44,615 nt of DNA from Armatimonadota bacterium (GTDB lineage: Bacteria > Armatimonadota > Zipacnadia > UBA1398 > JAKPQA01). A program made the translations under genes and the position numbers. The stretch spans positions 1-44,615 of the forward strand of contig JAKPQA010000158.1 of NCBI GenBank assembly GCA_029547025.1, read 5' to 3'. Under the pieces are notes generated by a model. That model was not told where the DNA came from. It ran no database searches and saw nothing but the letters and a program-made list of their open reading frames with translations. Shown piece after piece: positions 3,752 to 11,523 of the stretch (positions are counted from its first letter, which is position 1; the number at the start of each line of letters is the position of its first letter).

Positions 3752-4242
3752 GGCGGTTCCACCTCTCCACAGGCCTGCTCGGCGTACGGGACGCCCAGCG
3801 ACTCGAGCGCCGACCGCACTTCGGCCCCATTGCCAGAAAGGAACAAACGGCATCCGCGGTACGCGTCGAGGCGTGAGGGCGTCCGGCGAGTGCAGAGCAG
3901 GATCTGGTCGCCGCTGACCCGGTAGATCCGGAACTGATCCCAGGGCCGGCGATGCCGCCCGAATAGGGTGCGAACCTGCACCCCGTCGGGGTCCAGCCGG
4001 TAGTACGTCCGCGTCAGGTAGGGGAACAGGGCAGACAACAGGAAAACACAAGCAAGGACCACATAGAAAGGTGAGCCGAAGGCCGCGCCGACGAGACCCA
4101 GGACGACAACGATCATGGCAAGCGCCGCCCAGGTCCGGCCCGGGTGTTCCCGAGCCGGACAAACCGACCACTCGAGGATGACCTCCGGGTGGTCCTCCGA
4201 GGCGTCGCCCGATCGACTCACCGGGTCCCCGTGGGGTGTCAT
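3721..4242 (-). CDS. Small membrane protein with PH-like C-terminal domain
   Basis: About 173 residues from ATG 4242; an upstream in-frame start at 4263 is possible. After a polar N-terminus there are two hydrophobic helices separated by a very short turn (around TWAALAMIVVVLGLVGAAFG and FYVVLACVFLLSALFPYL). A soluble segment follows with YRLDPDGVQVRTLFGRHRR and PWDQFRIYRV. This two-helix plus beta-rich layout is typical of bacterial PH-domain (bPH/YcxB-like) membrane proteins of unknown function. It is the first gene of the minus-strand run with the FG-GAP protein and apgM, and is divergent from the membrane protein starting at 4287. I cannot assign a specific role. Confidence 0.6.
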   Translation of the reverse strand: MTPHGDPVSRSGDASEDHPEVILEWSVCPAREHPGRTWAALAMIVVVLGLVGAAFGSPFYVVLACVFLLSALFPYLTRTYYRLDPDGVQVRTLFGRHRRPWDQFRIYRVSGDQILLCTRRTPSRLDAYRGCRLFLSGNGAEVRSALESLGVPYAEQACGEVEPPCETADARKP

Positions 4243-4286
4243 GCTGTGCGATGCTCCCCCCAAGTCGACGCCCCTTCCCTGGCCCC

Positions 4287-6272
4287 ATGAGCACTCCCTC
4301 CGTCTGCCCCACAGGGGGCAAATCGCTCGAGATCGCTCAGCCGGCGGGCGAGTCTGGCTTCCGGTTCTGGGCCGTGTGCCTGGTCGCGCTCCTGGCGGCC
4401 CCGTTCAACGCGCTCTGGATCGTCCACATGGAGGGCGTCCGCGACCTGGGGCAGCCAACCATCGTGTCTGTCTTCTACAACGTCATCTTCATCGTCTTCG
4501 TCGTGACCAGCCTCAACCACCTGGTCCGCCTTGTGTCCCCACGCCGAGCGCTATCGCAGGCCGAGCTGCTAGTCCTCTATGTGATGCTCTCCGTGCTGAC
4601 CTCGCCGGCCGGGCTTGACACGCTCCAGATCCTCACCTGCACCATCACCGGCCCCTACCGGTTCGGCACGCCCGAGAGCGGCTGGCAGGAGCTGTTTTTC
4701 CAGTACCTGCCCGAGGGCATGATCGTCAGCGACCCGGTGGCCCTCAACAACATCTGGGCGGGCGGCGGCAGCCTCTACCAGCCGGAGAACCTGAATGGTG
4801 TCCTCGGCCCCATGCTCCGCTGGTGGGCGTTCCTCTCGGCGCTGTGGATCGCCCCGCTGGGCCTGGCCGTGCTGTTCCGCCGGCGCTGGATCGAGTCCGA
4901 GCGGCTCACCTTCCCCATCGTGCACCTGCCGCTCGAGATGACCCGGCCCGATGCACGCCTCTTCCGAAGTCGGCTCATGTGGATGGCCTTCGGCCTCGCC
5001 GCGACCATTCAGCTCCTGAACGGCTTGCACCTCATCTACCCGGTGGTGCCCCAGGTGCCGGTCAAGTTCCAGCAGGTGCCGGCCATGAACCTGGCGAGTC
5101 AGCTCCTCGACCGGCCGTGGAATGCCATCGGGACTTTCGGCGTCGCCTTCTACCCGTTCATCATTGGCCTGGCGCTGCTTCTGCCGATGGAGCTGCCCCT
5201 CTCGTGTGTCCTCTTCTACTTCTTCTTCAAGGCGCAGATGATCTTCTGCTCCCATGCGGGGCTCACCCAGTATCCCGAGTTCCCCTATCTCAAAGAGCAG
5301 TCGTTCGGCGGCTACATGGCCTTGCTGGTCTTCTCGATCTGGGCGGGGCGTAGCTACTACCGCGATGTGCTCGCCCGGGCCGTGGGGCTGTTGCGCAAGC
5401 CTATCGATCGCGATGAACCGCTCTCCTACCGCGCTGCCGTGCTGCTGTTCCTGGCCGGCGCGGCGTATGTCATCGGCGTCGGTGTGAACCAGCGCATGGC
5501 CCTGTGGGTCTCCATCGCCTTCTTCGCCCAGTACTTCGTGATGACATGTGTCGTCGGGCGCATCCGCGCCGAGATGGGCTTGCCCACGCACGAGATGGAG
5601 CGTCTTGGCCCCGCCGTGACCATGGGCAACGGCCTCGGGAAGCGCATCCTGGGCGATCAGAACCTCACCTCGCTGTCGCTCTTCTTCGGGTTCACCCGTG
5701 GCATCCGCAACGTGCCCTTCCCCCACCAGGTCGAGGGCCTGAAGCTGATGGAGCGCTCCCGGGGCTCATCGCGCCGGCTGCTCTATGCCATGGCCATCGC
5801 CGTGGTCGTCGGCATCGGGTGCGCGTTGTGGGCCGAGTTTCACCTCGCATTCGAGAACGGTTTCGGTGCCCGCTGGCGCGACCTTCCCGGCTGGCTCAGC
5901 CGGGAAGCCTGGGAGCAACTCGTCGGCTGGATCAATGTGCCGAAGGGGATCGACCGCGGCCGGGCCGAGGCGGCCCTCATTGGGTTCGTGTTCTACTTCG
6001 GCGCCATGGTGCTCCGGACCCAGTGTCTCTGGTGGCCCCTGCACCCGGCGGGCTTCGCGCTGTCGACGACCTACTTCATGGATCACATGTGGTTCCCGTT
6101 CCTCATCGCCTTCTGCGCCAAATGGACGCTGACGCGCTATGGGGGGCACCAGATCTCACGCGGCGTGGCCCTGTTCGCCTTGGGGCTGATCCTGGGCGAT
6201 ATCACCATCGGCTGCGGCTGGAGCCTCTACGGCATCGCCCGGAGCTTCAACGCGTGGCAGTTCTGGCCGTAG
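4287..6272 (+). CDS. Polytopic membrane protein, DUF6785/DUF6784-like
   Basis: A 661-residue integral membrane protein with about a dozen hydrophobic segments spread along its length. It starts at ATG 4287, just after a GC-rich divergent spacer. Visible features are an N-terminal helix near WAVCLVALLAAPFNALW, a conserved-looking ESERLTFPIVHLPLEM loop after about 200 residues, and a C-terminal region with HPAGFALSTTYFMDHMWFPF. This pattern resembles the large DUF6785/DUF6784 membrane proteins common in Armatimonadota and planctomycete-like genomes, usually near secreted hydrolases. A transport function is plausible but not demonstrated. The gene stands alone, with about 175 bases to the next coding start. 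Confidence 0.72.
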   Translation: MSTPSVCPTGGKSLEIAQPAGESGFRFWAVCLVALLAAPFNALWIVHMEGVRDLGQPTIVSVFYNVIFIVFVVTSLNHLVRLVSPRRALSQAELLVLYVMLSVLTSPAGLDTLQILTCTITGPYRFGTPESGWQELFFQYLPEGMIVSDPVALNNIWAGGGSLYQPENLNGVLGPMLRWWAFLSALWIAPLGLAVLFRRRWIESERLTFPIVHLPLEMTRPDARLFRSRLMWMAFGLAATIQLLNGLHLIYPVVPQVPVKFQQVPAMNLASQLLDRPWNAIGTFGVAFYPFIIGLALLLPMELPLSCVLFYFFFKAQMIFCSHAGLTQYPEFPYLKEQSFGGYMALLVFSIWAGRSYYRDVLARAVGLLRKPIDRDEPLSYRAAVLLFLAGAAYVIGVGVNQRMALWVSIAFFAQYFVMTCVVGRIRAEMGLPTHEMERLGPAVTMGNGLGKRILGDQNLTSLSLFFGFTRGIRNVPFPHQVEGLKLMERSRGSSRRLLYAMAIAVVVGIGCALWAEFHLAFENGFGARWRDLPGWLSREAWEQLVGWINVPKGIDRGRAEAALIGFVFYFGAMVLRTQCLWWPLHPAGFALSTTYFMDHMWFPFLIAFCAKWTLTRYGGHQISRGVALFALGLILGDITIGCGWSLYGIARSFNAWQFWP

Positions 6273-6403: not shown

Positions 6404-6426
6404 CTCGTGCAGCGGTACCCTCTTCT

Positions 6427-6435
6427 GGAGGAGGT
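6427..6435 (+). promoter_or_regulatory. Strong Shine-Dalgarno that sits better for an out-of-frame ATG
   Basis: GGAGGAGGT lies 8 bases before ATG 6444, which is in the wrong frame and stops after about 28 codons. It lies 13 bases before ATG 6449, which is in frame with the long gene. The site is complementary to the CCTCC motifs repeated in the following (TCCC)n tract, so the mRNA could fold over its own ribosome-binding site. Confidence 0.6.
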
Positions 6436-6448
6436 ACCTCGTCATGGT

Positions 6449-8839
6449 ATGCGGGCACCACCGGCTTGTCTCCCTCCCTCCCTCCCTCCCTCCCTCCCTA
6501 TCATCTCGTTCCTATGTGTCTGTGGTCTGACTCTCCCCGTGTCCGCGGAACCCACCTTCACGCTCACGCTCCAACCGTCTTCGTCCACGGTGTCTGACAT
6601 GTGGCACTGGTCCGTATCGGCGTCGGCTCCGCCGCCGGGCACCATGATGATGTGGGGCATCTCCGGCATCTGGAAGAAGCGCGACAACGGCGCCTGGCAG
6701 AGCGCGCCGAACATCTTCATCGACCCGGCGGGCACCAAGGGGGGAACCTGGCTGACCTACGGCGATGGCGATCAGAACTTCCCCATCGACGTGAAGTGCA
6801 GCATCACGTACACCCTCTTCGGCCCGGGCGGTTCGAGTCAGGGCAGTGCTGAGACCAACACCGTAACGGCCACACCGGGCAACATGGTGACCCACTGCAC
6901 GGGCGGCAACGCCCTGCTCATTCTCCATGCCCCGGGCGATGAGGACCCGAACACTCCGGGCGCCGAGGAACACGTGCTGACGTGGAACGCCTACCACCAG
7001 GACTGGTGCCACAGCGCGTTCGCGAACGAGCACATGCACTGCGGCATCTCGGTGCTGCCGGTCACGGGGAACCCGGCATCGCCCGACTGGCAGATCACCG
7101 TGCCCCAGGGCGATCCAGGAGACGGCTCCTACACCTGGGAGGGTCAGCGCACCCCGCCCAGGCCATCGGCGCCCAAGGGGATCTACACCTGGCTCGTCTC
7201 CGCCTCCCACAAATACGACCCCGATGGCACCGGCTGCCCCGTGGGCTGCGGTCACGTCGCCGAGTGTCCGCCCGATACCGACAAGGTGGGGCGGCCCGCC
7301 ACGGTCCAGTCGTTCGAGTACCTTCACCTCGACCCGGAGGCGAACCGGCTCTTCGTGAGGGTGACCTACGCCCTCGCGACCGATGTCGGCGAGTGCATGG
7401 TGAAGGTCTTCACGCCCAGCTTCGACGCGGTCACCTGGGCGGCATCGGGCGACGAACTGACGGCGGGGACACACACCACCGACGTCCTCGAGATCGAGGG
7501 CGTCAATGACGACCAGGGCAACGTGGTCGACGGCGACGAGTTCTGCGCGGTGGTTCTCTCGAGCCAGACGGCTGCGGAGGGCCTGCTCAACCGCGACCGG
7601 CAGCCGAAGCCCCACGTGCCTCACGGCATGTACGGTCAGGCACAGACCGGGAGCGTGACCCTCGAGAGCATCTCGTTCGAGGACGACATCCCCATGAAGT
7701 GGGCTGTGCACCCTCTCGACGGCAACCCGGTCGACCTCGGGAACCCCGAATGGACGCGAGCGGACGTCCGGCAGGACTGGAAGCTCCTCCGGCCCTATTG
7801 CACGTGCCCGAGACCCTATGACTTCCTTCCGGGGAGCCCGTCAGGGGCCTGCCCCAACCATGGCGGCGCGTGGTCCGGGCCGAAGCGGGATCCGGCCGCG
7901 TACGTTCGGCCATCTAAGGCCAACCGGACGAACAACGTCCCGCTGCTCGTCACGCTCAAGGGTCCGGCGGGTGCGACTGGTACGGCGTGGGCTACCGGAA
8001 GCCTCGGCGGAGTGATGGCGTTCCCTGTCGAGTTCGACTCGAACGGCGACGCCACCGACCAGCCCGCTCACACGGGAGCCGAAGTGACCGACACGGTGGA
8101 TGTGCTGGGTGTGAACTGGAGCTGGCACTTCCAGTTCGACGAGACGGCCCACCAGATTGCTCTTGGCGACTCGGAGCACACGGTCTACGTGACCTTGGAC
8201 CAGCGGCTCGCAGGCGTACCGGTGTTCTTGCAGCTAGTGGACTTCTCGTGCCGGTGGGCCGATGGCGGCGAGGCCGCCGCATACGTGTTTGACGCGATCT
8301 GGCATGAGATCAAGTTCAACTACCTGCCACCGTACCAGTACTACTCCGAGCCGGGGAGCACCTTTAGCCCAGACCATCTGGGCGACCCCGACCTCGATCT
8401 GTGGGCCCTTCTCGGGTCCGAGCGTGGGCGCTGCGGGCACTACGCTGACCTCATGTGGGGGCTGAACGCGGTCCACGGCCTGCAGGTAGCCAGACAAGAG
8501 GTACATGGCGGGCCTCAGGGGGATCGCACAGGCACTTGGGTCTGGTTCCACGTCAGGTACCGTGGATCGTCTGGGATCCGGGCCCATGGCACTCTCGATC
8601 CCGCGCAGAAGTGGTTCCGGAACCACGGGCTGTGCTGGCTAGGCGACCGCCTGACGCTCTACGATCCCTCGTACGGCGTCTGCGAGGACGGCGCTAGCGC
8701 GGACGATGCCCTGCGGAAGTACGAGAACAACGCCGTCTGCGACTACAGCGAGGATGCCCTGCCGGGCCCTCCGTCCAACTGGGTGCCGAACGACCTGGCA
8801 GCGCCGTTTGCCGAACTCGCCTTCGGCGGCTCGTGGTGA
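6449..8839 (+). CDS. Large secreted protein with C-terminal transglutaminase-like domain
   Basis: A 796-residue exported protein from ATG 6449; a GTG at 6407 is an alternative. The first codons include the (TCCC)7 tract, encoding PPSLPPSLP, followed by a hydrophobic core and a likely cleavage after PVSA. Most of the protein is beta-rich and unrecognised; a Cys-rich segment with CTCPRPYDFLPG lies near residue 450. The C-terminal part has RCGHYADLMWGL (Cys near residue 661), WFHVRYRG (His near 700) and LYDPSYGV (Asp near 737). This is the Cys-His-Asp order of transglutaminase-like hydrolases. The next lipoprotein gene starts 14 bases after the stop, so they are probably co-transcribed. The enzyme call is by motif; the substrate is unknown. 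Confidence 0.65.
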   Translation: MRAPPACLPPSLPPSLPIISFLCVCGLTLPVSAEPTFTLTLQPSSSTVSDMWHWSVSASAPPPGTMMMWGISGIWKKRDNGAWQSAPNIFIDPAGTKGGTWLTYGDGDQNFPIDVKCSITYTLFGPGGSSQGSAETNTVTATPGNMVTHCTGGNALLILHAPGDEDPNTPGAEEHVLTWNAYHQDWCHSAFANEHMHCGISVLPVTGNPASPDWQITVPQGDPGDGSYTWEGQRTPPRPSAPKGIYTWLVSASHKYDPDGTGCPVGCGHVAECPPDTDKVGRPATVQSFEYLHLDPEANRLFVRVTYALATDVGECMVKVFTPSFDAVTWAASGDELTAGTHTTDVLEIEGVNDDQGNVVDGDEFCAVVLSSQTAAEGLLNRDRQPKPHVPHGMYGQAQTGSVTLESISFEDDIPMKWAVHPLDGNPVDLGNPEWTRADVRQDWKLLRPYCTCPRPYDFLPGSPSGACPNHGGAWSGPKRDPAAYVRPSKANRTNNVPLLVTLKGPAGATGTAWATGSLGGVMAFPVEFDSNGDATDQPAHTGAEVTDTVDVLGVNWSWHFQFDETAHQIALGDSEHTVYVTLDQRLAGVPVFLQLVDFSCRWADGGEAAAYVFDAIWHEIKFNYLPPYQYYSEPGSTFSPDHLGDPDLDLWALLGSERGRCGHYADLMWGLNAVHGLQVARQEVHGGPQGDRTGTWVWFHVRYRGSSGIRAHGTLDPAQKWFRNHGLCWLGDRLTLYDPSYGVCEDGASADDALRKYENNAVCDYSEDALPGPPSNWVPNDLAAPFAELAFGGSW
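6471..6499 (+). repeat. Tetranucleotide repeat (TCCC)7 in coding sequence
   Basis: Seven perfect TCCC units plus one extra T run without interruption inside the signal-peptide codons. Gain or loss of one unit shifts the frame. The opposite strand reads (GGGA)7, which satisfies the usual G-quadruplex pattern of four or more GGG runs with one-base loops. The tract is the only simple-sequence repeat of this length that I see in the window. Confidence 0.97.
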
Positions 8840-8853
8840 AGGGGGCAGATGAG

Positions 8854-10152
8854 ATGCAGAGACGCTTCGCCCGTCGCCTGTTCGGGTCTGGGGCACCGCT
8901 AGCGGCTGCCCTGTCACTCACACTTCTAGGATCCGCGCTGGGCTGCGGCCGTGGTGACGCCGACGGCCATTCGGTGGCGACCGTCGGGGCCGCCCCAGAG
9001 CCGGCCAAACCGGGCCGCGCGTCCGCTGCCTCGGCACGCGTGACCGGTGCGGTGGTGGCGGCGCCTGCGCGCGGGCTGCCGCGCCCGCGCCGTATAGACC
9101 CGCCCGGCGACCACCCGCCGGTGGGCGCCGTGCTCTACGTGGCACCCGACGGGCCGCACATCGTCGTCGCGCTCTCTCCGGAGACCAGCCTGGCACCGAA
9201 CGGAGAGTGGTGCGACGCGTTCGACTGCACCGCCCTCAAGTGTTGGGAAGCCAAGCTTGGAGCCGGCTGTGCAGCGACTGGTGTGGAGCCTGCCCCCTCC
9301 CTGACGACGGGTCGGCGCTGGGATGGGCAGGGGCTCTGTATCGTGCAGCAGGGCGGAGAACGCATGGCGGTCATCGAGCGGTGGCCTATGTCTGCCTACA
9401 CAACGTCCCACATCACGGTCGAGCGCGCTGGCGAGGTCGTGTTTTCGAAGACGCTCGGGATCCCCGGTTACAACGACATGCAGGCGGTCGCGAGGCCTGA
9501 GTACCCCCGTGATGTCTCGGCGCTGGGGGCATTCGAGCCGTCGGCAACCCTGGTCGACGAGCGTGTGTGGCTCGTCACGCGTGACGGCTTTGGGTACGCG
9601 TCGGTCAGTTCGACGCGTTGGGGTCATTTCACCTACGGCGACTGGGCCGTCTCCAAGCGCCTGGGCCGGGGGTACTCCCCAGCCATCGTGGGGAGCCGCG
9701 ATCGCGGCCTGTTCGTGTCGTGCGTCAGGTCTGCAGCTGCCTCGTCAAGCACAGGCCGGGCCCCGAGCACGATCGCGCTCTTCCGGTCGACCGACGGGCA
9801 GGACTGGAAGGCGCTGCAGCCCGTGACCGACGAGACGACGGCCCGTACGCAGGCGCTGGCACTGGACCCCGAGCACGGGCTGTGCGTGGTCTACGCGGCA
9901 AAGCGCGAGGGCGGGTGGCCGCTGATGGCCGCCCGGTCGGCCGACTTCGGACAGACGTGGGGCAAGCCCGTCATGCTGACCGAGCGGACGATCTACGCCT
10001 CGCAGCCCCAGGTGGTCGCCTACGGGGGGAGGTTCTACATCTCCTACCGCGACACAGCGGACGTGATGTCGAAGCGGTGGAACCCGCTCTTCGACGGCGA
10101 CCCGCTGGGCATCTACACGCTCGTGCTCGAGCCGGAGCAGTTGCCGGCGTAG
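8854..10152 (+). CDS. Asp-box (sialidase-like) lipoprotein, copy 1
   Basis: A 432-residue predicted lipoprotein. ATG 8854 follows a G-rich GGGGGCAGATGAG leader; an upstream GTG at 8833 would overlap the previous gene. The signal peptide ends SALGC, an imperfect but acceptable lipobox, and a Pro/Ala-rich linker follows. Asp-box motifs typical of six-bladed beta-propellers appear late in the protein, STDGQDW near residue 315 and SADFGQTW near 365. I do not see the arginine triad or RIP motif of true sialidases. The gene is followed by a close paralogue in the same orientation, including similarity beyond the stop codon. It probably binds or processes glycans at the cell surface, which is inference. 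Confidence 0.8.
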   Translation: MQRRFARRLFGSGAPLAAALSLTLLGSALGCGRGDADGHSVATVGAAPEPAKPGRASAASARVTGAVVAAPARGLPRPRRIDPPGDHPPVGAVLYVAPDGPHIVVALSPETSLAPNGEWCDAFDCTALKCWEAKLGAGCAATGVEPAPSLTTGRRWDGQGLCIVQQGGERMAVIERWPMSAYTTSHITVERAGEVVFSKTLGIPGYNDMQAVARPEYPRDVSALGAFEPSATLVDERVWLVTRDGFGYASVSSTRWGHFTYGDWAVSKRLGRGYSPAIVGSRDRGLFVSCVRSAAASSSTGRAPSTIALFRSTDGQDWKALQPVTDETTARTQALALDPEHGLCVVYAAKREGGWPLMAARSADFGQTWGKPVMLTERTIYASQPQVVAYGGRFYISYRDTADVMSKRWNPLFDGDPLGIYTLVLEPEQLPA

Positions 10153-10173
10153 GTGAGGGGGCGGGGGCCGGGG
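10132..10173 (+). repeat. Direct repeat spanning the 3' end of copy 1
   Basis: These 42 bases cover the last codons, the TAG stop and 21 bases beyond it. They are repeated at 11503-11544 with a single mismatch (G/T). They mark the tandem duplication of the Asp-box lipoprotein gene. Confidence 0.9.
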
Positions 10174-10239
10174 CTAGGTCGCTGCGTCCCGGCCCCCCGC
10201 CCGCGACATGCGGTGCTACGTGTGGGAGGTGCTGTGGTC

Positions 10240-11523
10240 GTGCGGAGAGGCATCACGTACGTTGTGCCTGCGGTGGCTGTTGCGGCGCTGGCGCTGGTAG
10301 TGCCACACCTGACCGGCTGCTCGCGTGGCGACGCCGACACTGCAGGGCCCCGAGCGGCGCCCTCGGAGAGTGCAGGCGGTGTGCCAGACGCGGCCGCGCC
10401 GTCGGCCAGCAACGGCGGCGCACCTGCTGCGCCCGTGCGCGACCTGCCCCGCCCGCGGAAGATCATGCCTCCCGGTGACCACCCGCCCGTGGGGGCCGTG
10501 CTCTACGCGGCATCCGATGGGCCGCACATCGTCGTCGCGCTTTCCCCAAAGACTGATCTGGCGCCAGGCGGCAAGTGGCAGGGCGGCTTCATGTTCTCCG
10601 ACGTGCCATCGTGGGAGGCACGGCTCGGCGAGGACGGATCGGCCTCTGGGGCGGACACCGGGCCACCGGCGAAGACGGGGCGTGGATGGAACGGACGCGG
10701 CTGGTGCATCGCCCAGAAGGGTGACGAGCGCGTCTCGTTCATCGTCGAGTGGCCCGCCTCAGCCTTCGGGACTTGCCACCTGACGCATGAGCGCGGCGGC
10801 CAGATCGTGTTCTCGAAGAACCTCGGCATTGCTGGCTACAACACGTGGGTGCCGGTGGATGGGCCCAGGTACCCGCAGGATCTGAGTGTGTACGACATCG
10901 CTGATCCTTCCGTGGCGCTCGTGGGCGAACGGCTGTGGTTCGTGAGCCGTGACATGTTTGCGAACCCTTCGGTCAGCCACACCCGGTGGGGCGAGTTCAA
11001 ATACACCGACTGGGCGCCATGCCGACGGCTGGGCAAGGGGTACTTCCCGAGCATCGCTGGCAGCGAGGACAAGGGCGTCTTCGTGTCCTATGTGAAGCTC
11101 GCCACGAAGGACCTGATCGATGGCGACGTTCGCGGCACCATCGCTGTGCGTCACTCCACCGACGGCGAGGAGTGGAAGGAGCTGCCGCCAGCGACTGACG
11201 AGAAGGCCGCGCATATGCAGGCGCTGGCGCTGGACTCCGAGCACGGGCTGTGCGTCGTCTACGCGGCCAAGCGCGAGGGCGGCTGGCCGCTGATGGCGGC
11301 GCGGTCAGCGGACTTCGGCCAGACCTGGGGCGAGCCCGTCATGCTGACCGAGCCGACGATCTACGCCTCGCAGCCGCAGGTGGTGGCGTATGGCGGGCGG
11401 TTCTACGTCTCCTATCGAGAGATGACCGGCGTCCGGAACAGCCGCAAAGAGGGCGGCCCCTTCGAAGGCGACCCGGTCGGGATCTACACACTCGTGCTCG
11501 GGCCGGAGCAGTTGCCGGCGTAG
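10240..11523 (+). CDS. Asp-box (sialidase-like) lipoprotein, copy 2
   Basis: A 427-residue paralogue of the preceding gene. GTG 10240 is chosen because GGGAGGT (10224-10230) lies 9 bases upstream; GTG 10234 is also in frame but too close to that site. The lipobox HLTGC is good. The two copies share the DHPPVGAVLY region, the GLCVVYAAKREGGWPLMAAR block and the terminal LVLxPEQLPA almost unchanged. The N-terminal linker and the central region (near DVPSWEARLGED) have diverged, and cysteines differ. SADFGQTW is kept as an Asp-box. The gradient, conserved at the C-terminal half and variable before it, suggests the central part faces a changing ligand or lacks constraint. Confidence 0.8.
   Translation: MRRGITYVVPAVAVAALALVVPHLTGCSRGDADTAGPRAAPSESAGGVPDAAAPSASNGGAPAAPVRDLPRPRKIMPPGDHPPVGAVLYAASDGPHIVVALSPKTDLAPGGKWQGGFMFSDVPSWEARLGEDGSASGADTGPPAKTGRGWNGRGWCIAQKGDERVSFIVEWPASAFGTCHLTHERGGQIVFSKNLGIAGYNTWVPVDGPRYPQDLSVYDIADPSVALVGERLWFVSRDMFANPSVSHTRWGEFKYTDWAPCRRLGKGYFPSIAGSEDKGVFVSYVKLATKDLIDGDVRGTIAVRHSTDGEEWKELPPATDEKAAHMQALALDSEHGLCVVYAAKREGGWPLMAARSADFGQTWGEPVMLTEPTIYASQPQVVAYGGRFYVSYREMTGVRNSRKEGGPFEGDPVGIYTLVLGPEQLPA

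Follow-up and report, generated by a model that had tools for sequence, protein, structure and literature searches.

We report here a perfect (TCCC)7 tract in the signal-peptide codons of a predicted exported protein, where it follows two alternative ATG codons served by a single Shine-Dalgarno-like sequence, so that a one-unit difference puts the downstream frame in or out of register with a start. The tract is real, and it is plausible that it acts as a functional translational contingency switch, a reading to which we assign a probability of roughly 0.4 on the one consensus sequence known, with neutral slippage as a nearly equal rival. The window, i.e. the whole stretch of DNA analysed, is a contig of 44,615 bases from a 6.3-Mb genome in 369 contigs, probably of the phylum Armatimonadota, with a GC content of 68%. 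The features concerned are listed below.

6427..6435, plus strand: Shine-Dalgarno-like GGAGGAGGT, common to the two candidate starts, read directly
6444..6446, plus strand: ATG, 8 nt past the Shine-Dalgarno, opening a 28-aa peptide at 7 units
6449..6451, plus strand: ATG, 13 nt past the Shine-Dalgarno, opening a 796-aa protein at 7 units
6470..6499, plus strand: (TCCC)7 tract, perfect period-4, 30 nt, 7 units plus two bases, read directly
6500..6547, plus strand: signal-peptide hydrophobic core IISFLCVCGLT and cleavage-site-like PVSA, directly after the tract
6449..8839, plus strand: predicted exported protein of 796 aa, N-terminal half of FlgD-Ig/PKD type, C-terminal part weakly transglutaminase-like
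8854..10152, plus strand: lipoprotein-like BNR-repeat gene, 14 nt past the stop of the 796-aa gene

Results

The initial annotation had placed seven unbroken TCCC units in the signal-peptide codons, and this proved correct to the base, the uninterrupted units (n = 7) occupying 6471-6498. An order-3 Markov model of the genome gives the 30-mer a log10 P of -18 and predicts, per 6.3-Mb strand, about 2e-6 30-nt period-4 tracts, whatever their motif. The tract is far beyond chance. No second site of (TCCC)4 or longer was found elsewhere in the 6.3-Mb genome, and a search of 290 other genomes of the phylum found no (TCCC)5. Our repeat survey beyond (TCCC)4 covered sampled stretches amounting to 1.51 Mb (24% of the genome), where the runner-up tetranucleotide tract had 3.25 units and, among runs of three or more copies of a 1-12 nt unit, only the (TCCC)7 tract was longer than 21 nt. 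The tract codons give SLPP repeats, free of stops, in all frames. Given the peptide, synonymous codons alone would yield the tract with a log10 P of -6.5, and hence it is not the by-product of a needed peptide. Since chance is excluded, the tract is one of a kind in these counts and codon choice does not account for it, we conclude that it arose by slippage and is singular. It also has the form looked for in phase variation, being a perfect simple-sequence repeat inside a coding sequence, far longer than chance, with a unit that is not a multiple of 3.

We then read the region of the two starts directly and modelled the frame outcomes for 5-9 units. The distances of GGAGGAGGT to ATG 6444 (8 nt) and to ATG 6449 (13 nt) were as first described, and so was the frame of each, ATG 6444 being out of frame with a stop after 28 codons and ATG 6449 in frame. 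This arrangement of GGAGGAGGT followed by ATGNNATG exists at one place only in the genome. The claim that one added TCCC swaps the roles of the two ATGs was likewise borne out by the modelling: with 8 units ATG 6444 opens 799 aa, with 5 units it opens 795 aa, and ATG 6449 then gives a short product. With 6 or 9 units neither ATG gives the protein, and the remote ATG 6319 alone is in frame. Over the 5-9 units modelled, a one-unit change thus brings a start codon into frame with the downstream sequence or takes it out of frame, which is the second property looked for in phase variation. GTG 6407 is also in frame with the protein at 7 units, giving 810 aa.

Among strong Shine-Dalgarno matches in the sampled genome, core-to-start spacing, which rests on heuristic start assignments, peaked at 7-8 nt and tailed off to 14 and beyond; on the same scale ATG 6444 stands at 9 and ATG 6449 at 14. 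Judged from spacing only, ATG 6449, the in-frame start of the assembly, is predicted to initiate less strongly than ATG 6444. Its spacing nevertheless lies within the tail of the genome's distribution, so that the gene may simply be fully on with 7 units. No ATG, GTG or TTG is in frame in the stretch from the tract to the hydrophobic core, the next being GTG 6539 in the cleavage region, and any secreted product must therefore be translated through the tract. Neither a sigma-70 promoter nor a terminator was found near the start, and the leader region as a whole folds less stably than most shuffles. A GGTACC inverted repeat (6414-6438) lies on both sides of the Shine-Dalgarno, and its pairing could cover GGAGGAGGT; as a sequestering hairpin it was rejected, its energy of -11.7 kcal/mol being no better than that of shuffles.

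Similarity to a relative (L006) begins at the hydrophobic core, or leader end, and continues downstream, and this onset speaks for the leader as predicted and for the frame downstream. Past the tract the frame is unbroken, with homology from the leader end onwards, so that 7 units is a productive state. Homologues within the phylum were partial matches only, 29-39% identical, and the genomes searched, all from other genera and families, yielded no close homologue for unit-number comparison, either in the phylum or in the collection scan. A conserved PPSLPP leader in relatives, which the initial annotation had named as evidence against its reading, was looked for and did not appear: the distant homologues have ordinary, non-repetitive leaders in which SLPP-type peptide is absent.

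The N-terminal half of the protein is common to surface proteins of the class that bear PKD and FlgD-Ig domains. No Pfam family exceeded its cut-off in the 796-aa protein, and profiles gave the label "transglutaminase-like" weak support. In its favour, Cys and His are invariant in the C-terminal domain, and Asp is present in 4 of 5 distant homologues. In contrast, all matches to Transglut_core (PF01841) stayed under the curated cut-off, both for the domain in the window (E 0.13, 13 bits against a cut-off of 23) and for four distant homologues (E 0.0067-0.2). A profile built from homologues of the C-terminal domain matched peptide:N-glycanase (E 0.0013), a member of the transglutaminase-like superfamily. 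The domain weakly resembles this superfamily at the sequence level, consistently in five distant homologues; its structure prediction from a single sequence reached a pLDDT of 35, too low to be of use. Four proteins of the phylum (L098, L099, L100 and L102), all from one distant genus, form a divergent transglutaminase-like family under the Pfam cut-off, with GRC and H motifs conserved.

Discussion

We propose that a microsatellite made by slippage separates two alternative starts from the hydrophobic core of a signal peptide, and that its repeat number would pick the ATG that is in frame. A single Shine-Dalgarno would serve both ATG 6444, which is well spaced, and ATG 6449, which is distant. 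At 8 or 5 units ATG 6444 would be used and high expression is predicted; at 7 units ATG 6449 would be used and low expression is predicted, with most ribosomes beginning the 28-aa peptide; and at 6 or 9 units neither ATG would serve and the gene is predicted to be off. Because the unit has four bases and no stop in any frame, the SLPP repeats, the core and the cleavage site would be the same in every productive state, and these states would differ only in level and first residues. The locus would thus predict three states. The relative strengths of the starts, variation of unit number in cells and selective maintenance for switching are what we infer here, and we are doubtful of the full proposal, that two starts five bases apart set three expression levels of the exported transglutaminase-like protein and perhaps of its operon partners.

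For a switch speak the tract with its frame arithmetic, the absence of the peptide in relatives and the productive frame at 7 units, as well as a layout shared with licA, modA and opa. The tract is singular in genome and phylum, though frame-breaking repeats are normally scarce in coding sequence, as seen in M. tuberculosis, where they are under-represented (PMC2430213). Against a switch, the tract stands alone in the sampled genome, whereas known phase-variable species have many such loci, H. influenzae for example 12-14 tetranucleotide loci in each genome (PMC2651432); nor is there any evident pressure from a host or its immune system. Of the phase-variation reading in the initial annotation, the start arithmetic and the capacity to switch have stood, but 7 units is short compared with H. 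influenzae, and the sampled genome shows no set of contingency loci. The length falls inside the range of 5-11 units in which H. influenzae tetranucleotide tracts show rare if any switching, according to De Bolle et al. as cited in PMC2992063; a 4-unit pentanucleotide tract in H. influenzae switches fast (PMC2651432). The rival is a neutral microsatellite, expanded by slippage from a chance CTCCCTCC seed where the leader was tolerant and weakly constrained, and then kept by drift; a change of unit number would in that case be a rare loss-of-function or start-shifting mutation without selected switching. We find this account about as tenable as the switch, somewhat below even odds. It agrees with a single locus in the genome, a tract short by phase-variation standards and leaders poorly conserved among relatives, and the poor conservation of the gene, with even a partial match in no more than 4 of 46 genomes of the class, suggests that it is dispensable. 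However, neutral growth to 7 units is no general habit here, since no other tetranucleotide tract exceeds 3.25 units in the 1.51 Mb, and the exchange of the two ATGs by one unit is left unexplained, though two ATGs in different frames were bound to allow some exchange of this sort.

Two further explanations appear improbable to us, and to a similar degree. The template (GGGA)7 could form a G-quadruplex, or the C-strand an i-motif, which would modulate transcription or replication with unit number playing a minor part. Effects of G-quadruplexes on gene expression in bacteria have been reported (review PMC7015867), and (GGGA)7 is the sole motif with one-base loops in 0.92 Mb of the genome; yet four units would be enough for such a structure and interruptions would be harmless, whereas seven perfect units are found, and the capacity is not unique, with 17 short-loop motifs in the sampled genome. 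Alternatively, the unit number could be an artefact of assembly or amplification, or the true start or leader could be another, such as GTG 6407, in which case no start exchange would occur. This would be in keeping with a draft genome fragmented into 369 contigs and with the in-frame position of GTG 6407. Nevertheless, ordinary reads are long enough to span a 30-nt tract, the site lies at 6.4 kb within a 44.6-kb contig, and 7 units leave the frame open; moreover, with GTG 6407 as start the tract would still be within the coding sequence, and changes in its length would still shift the frame.

The proposed switch may be compared with three known systems. In licA (lic1, H. influenzae, (CAAT)n), as here, a tetranucleotide tract lies at the 5' end of the coding sequence, several starts (alpha, beta, gamma) lie immediately 5' of it (PMC2992063), and one tetrapeptide results from every frame. 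In contrast, its tracts in nontypeable H. influenzae have 27 units on average (5-45), its product is a cytoplasmic enzyme of lipooligosaccharide decoration rather than an exported protein, and its switching is proven. The opa genes of Neisseria ((CTCTT)n) share with our locus a pyrimidine-rich leader repeat out of codon register (PMC3960869, PMC3899988), placed in the signal-peptide codons of a surface or exported protein. Unlike our locus, they carry a pentamer and one start codon, with simple on/off control, and belong to a family of about 11 members that switches at about 1e-3 per generation. Two potential starts depending on repeat number are found in modA, with AGTC/AGCC repeats (PMC3899988). 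The modA product differs in being a DNA methyltransferase that controls other genes, and the switching tracts tested there were much longer than ours, at 17-38 units.

To our knowledge, translational phase variation has been studied almost only in host-adapted bacteria. Among the papers searched, none joined "Armatimonadetes" and "phase variation", which is only weak evidence of absence. If the tract does switch, its occurrence in an environmental bacterium, together with two starts, one Shine-Dalgarno and a tetranucleotide tract located in the leader, would be unusual. In an uncultivated, apparently free-living lineage, this would be bet-hedging by repeat slippage that is not tied to immune evasion.

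Judging from the 14-nt gap, the 796-aa gene and the BNR-repeat gene are probably on the same transcript. Since the tract-bearing gene is closely followed by BNR-like genes, a switch might have polar effects on their expression. Two such genes lie in tandem at 8854-11523 and encode paralogous proteins with the lipoprotein-like leaders LGSALGC and HLTGC. Directly upstream, at 4236-6272, lies the gene of a large membrane protein with DUF6785 and DUF6784; the closest named relatives of this DUF6785 protein are 35-39% identical and come mostly from Armatimonadota-type metagenome bins.
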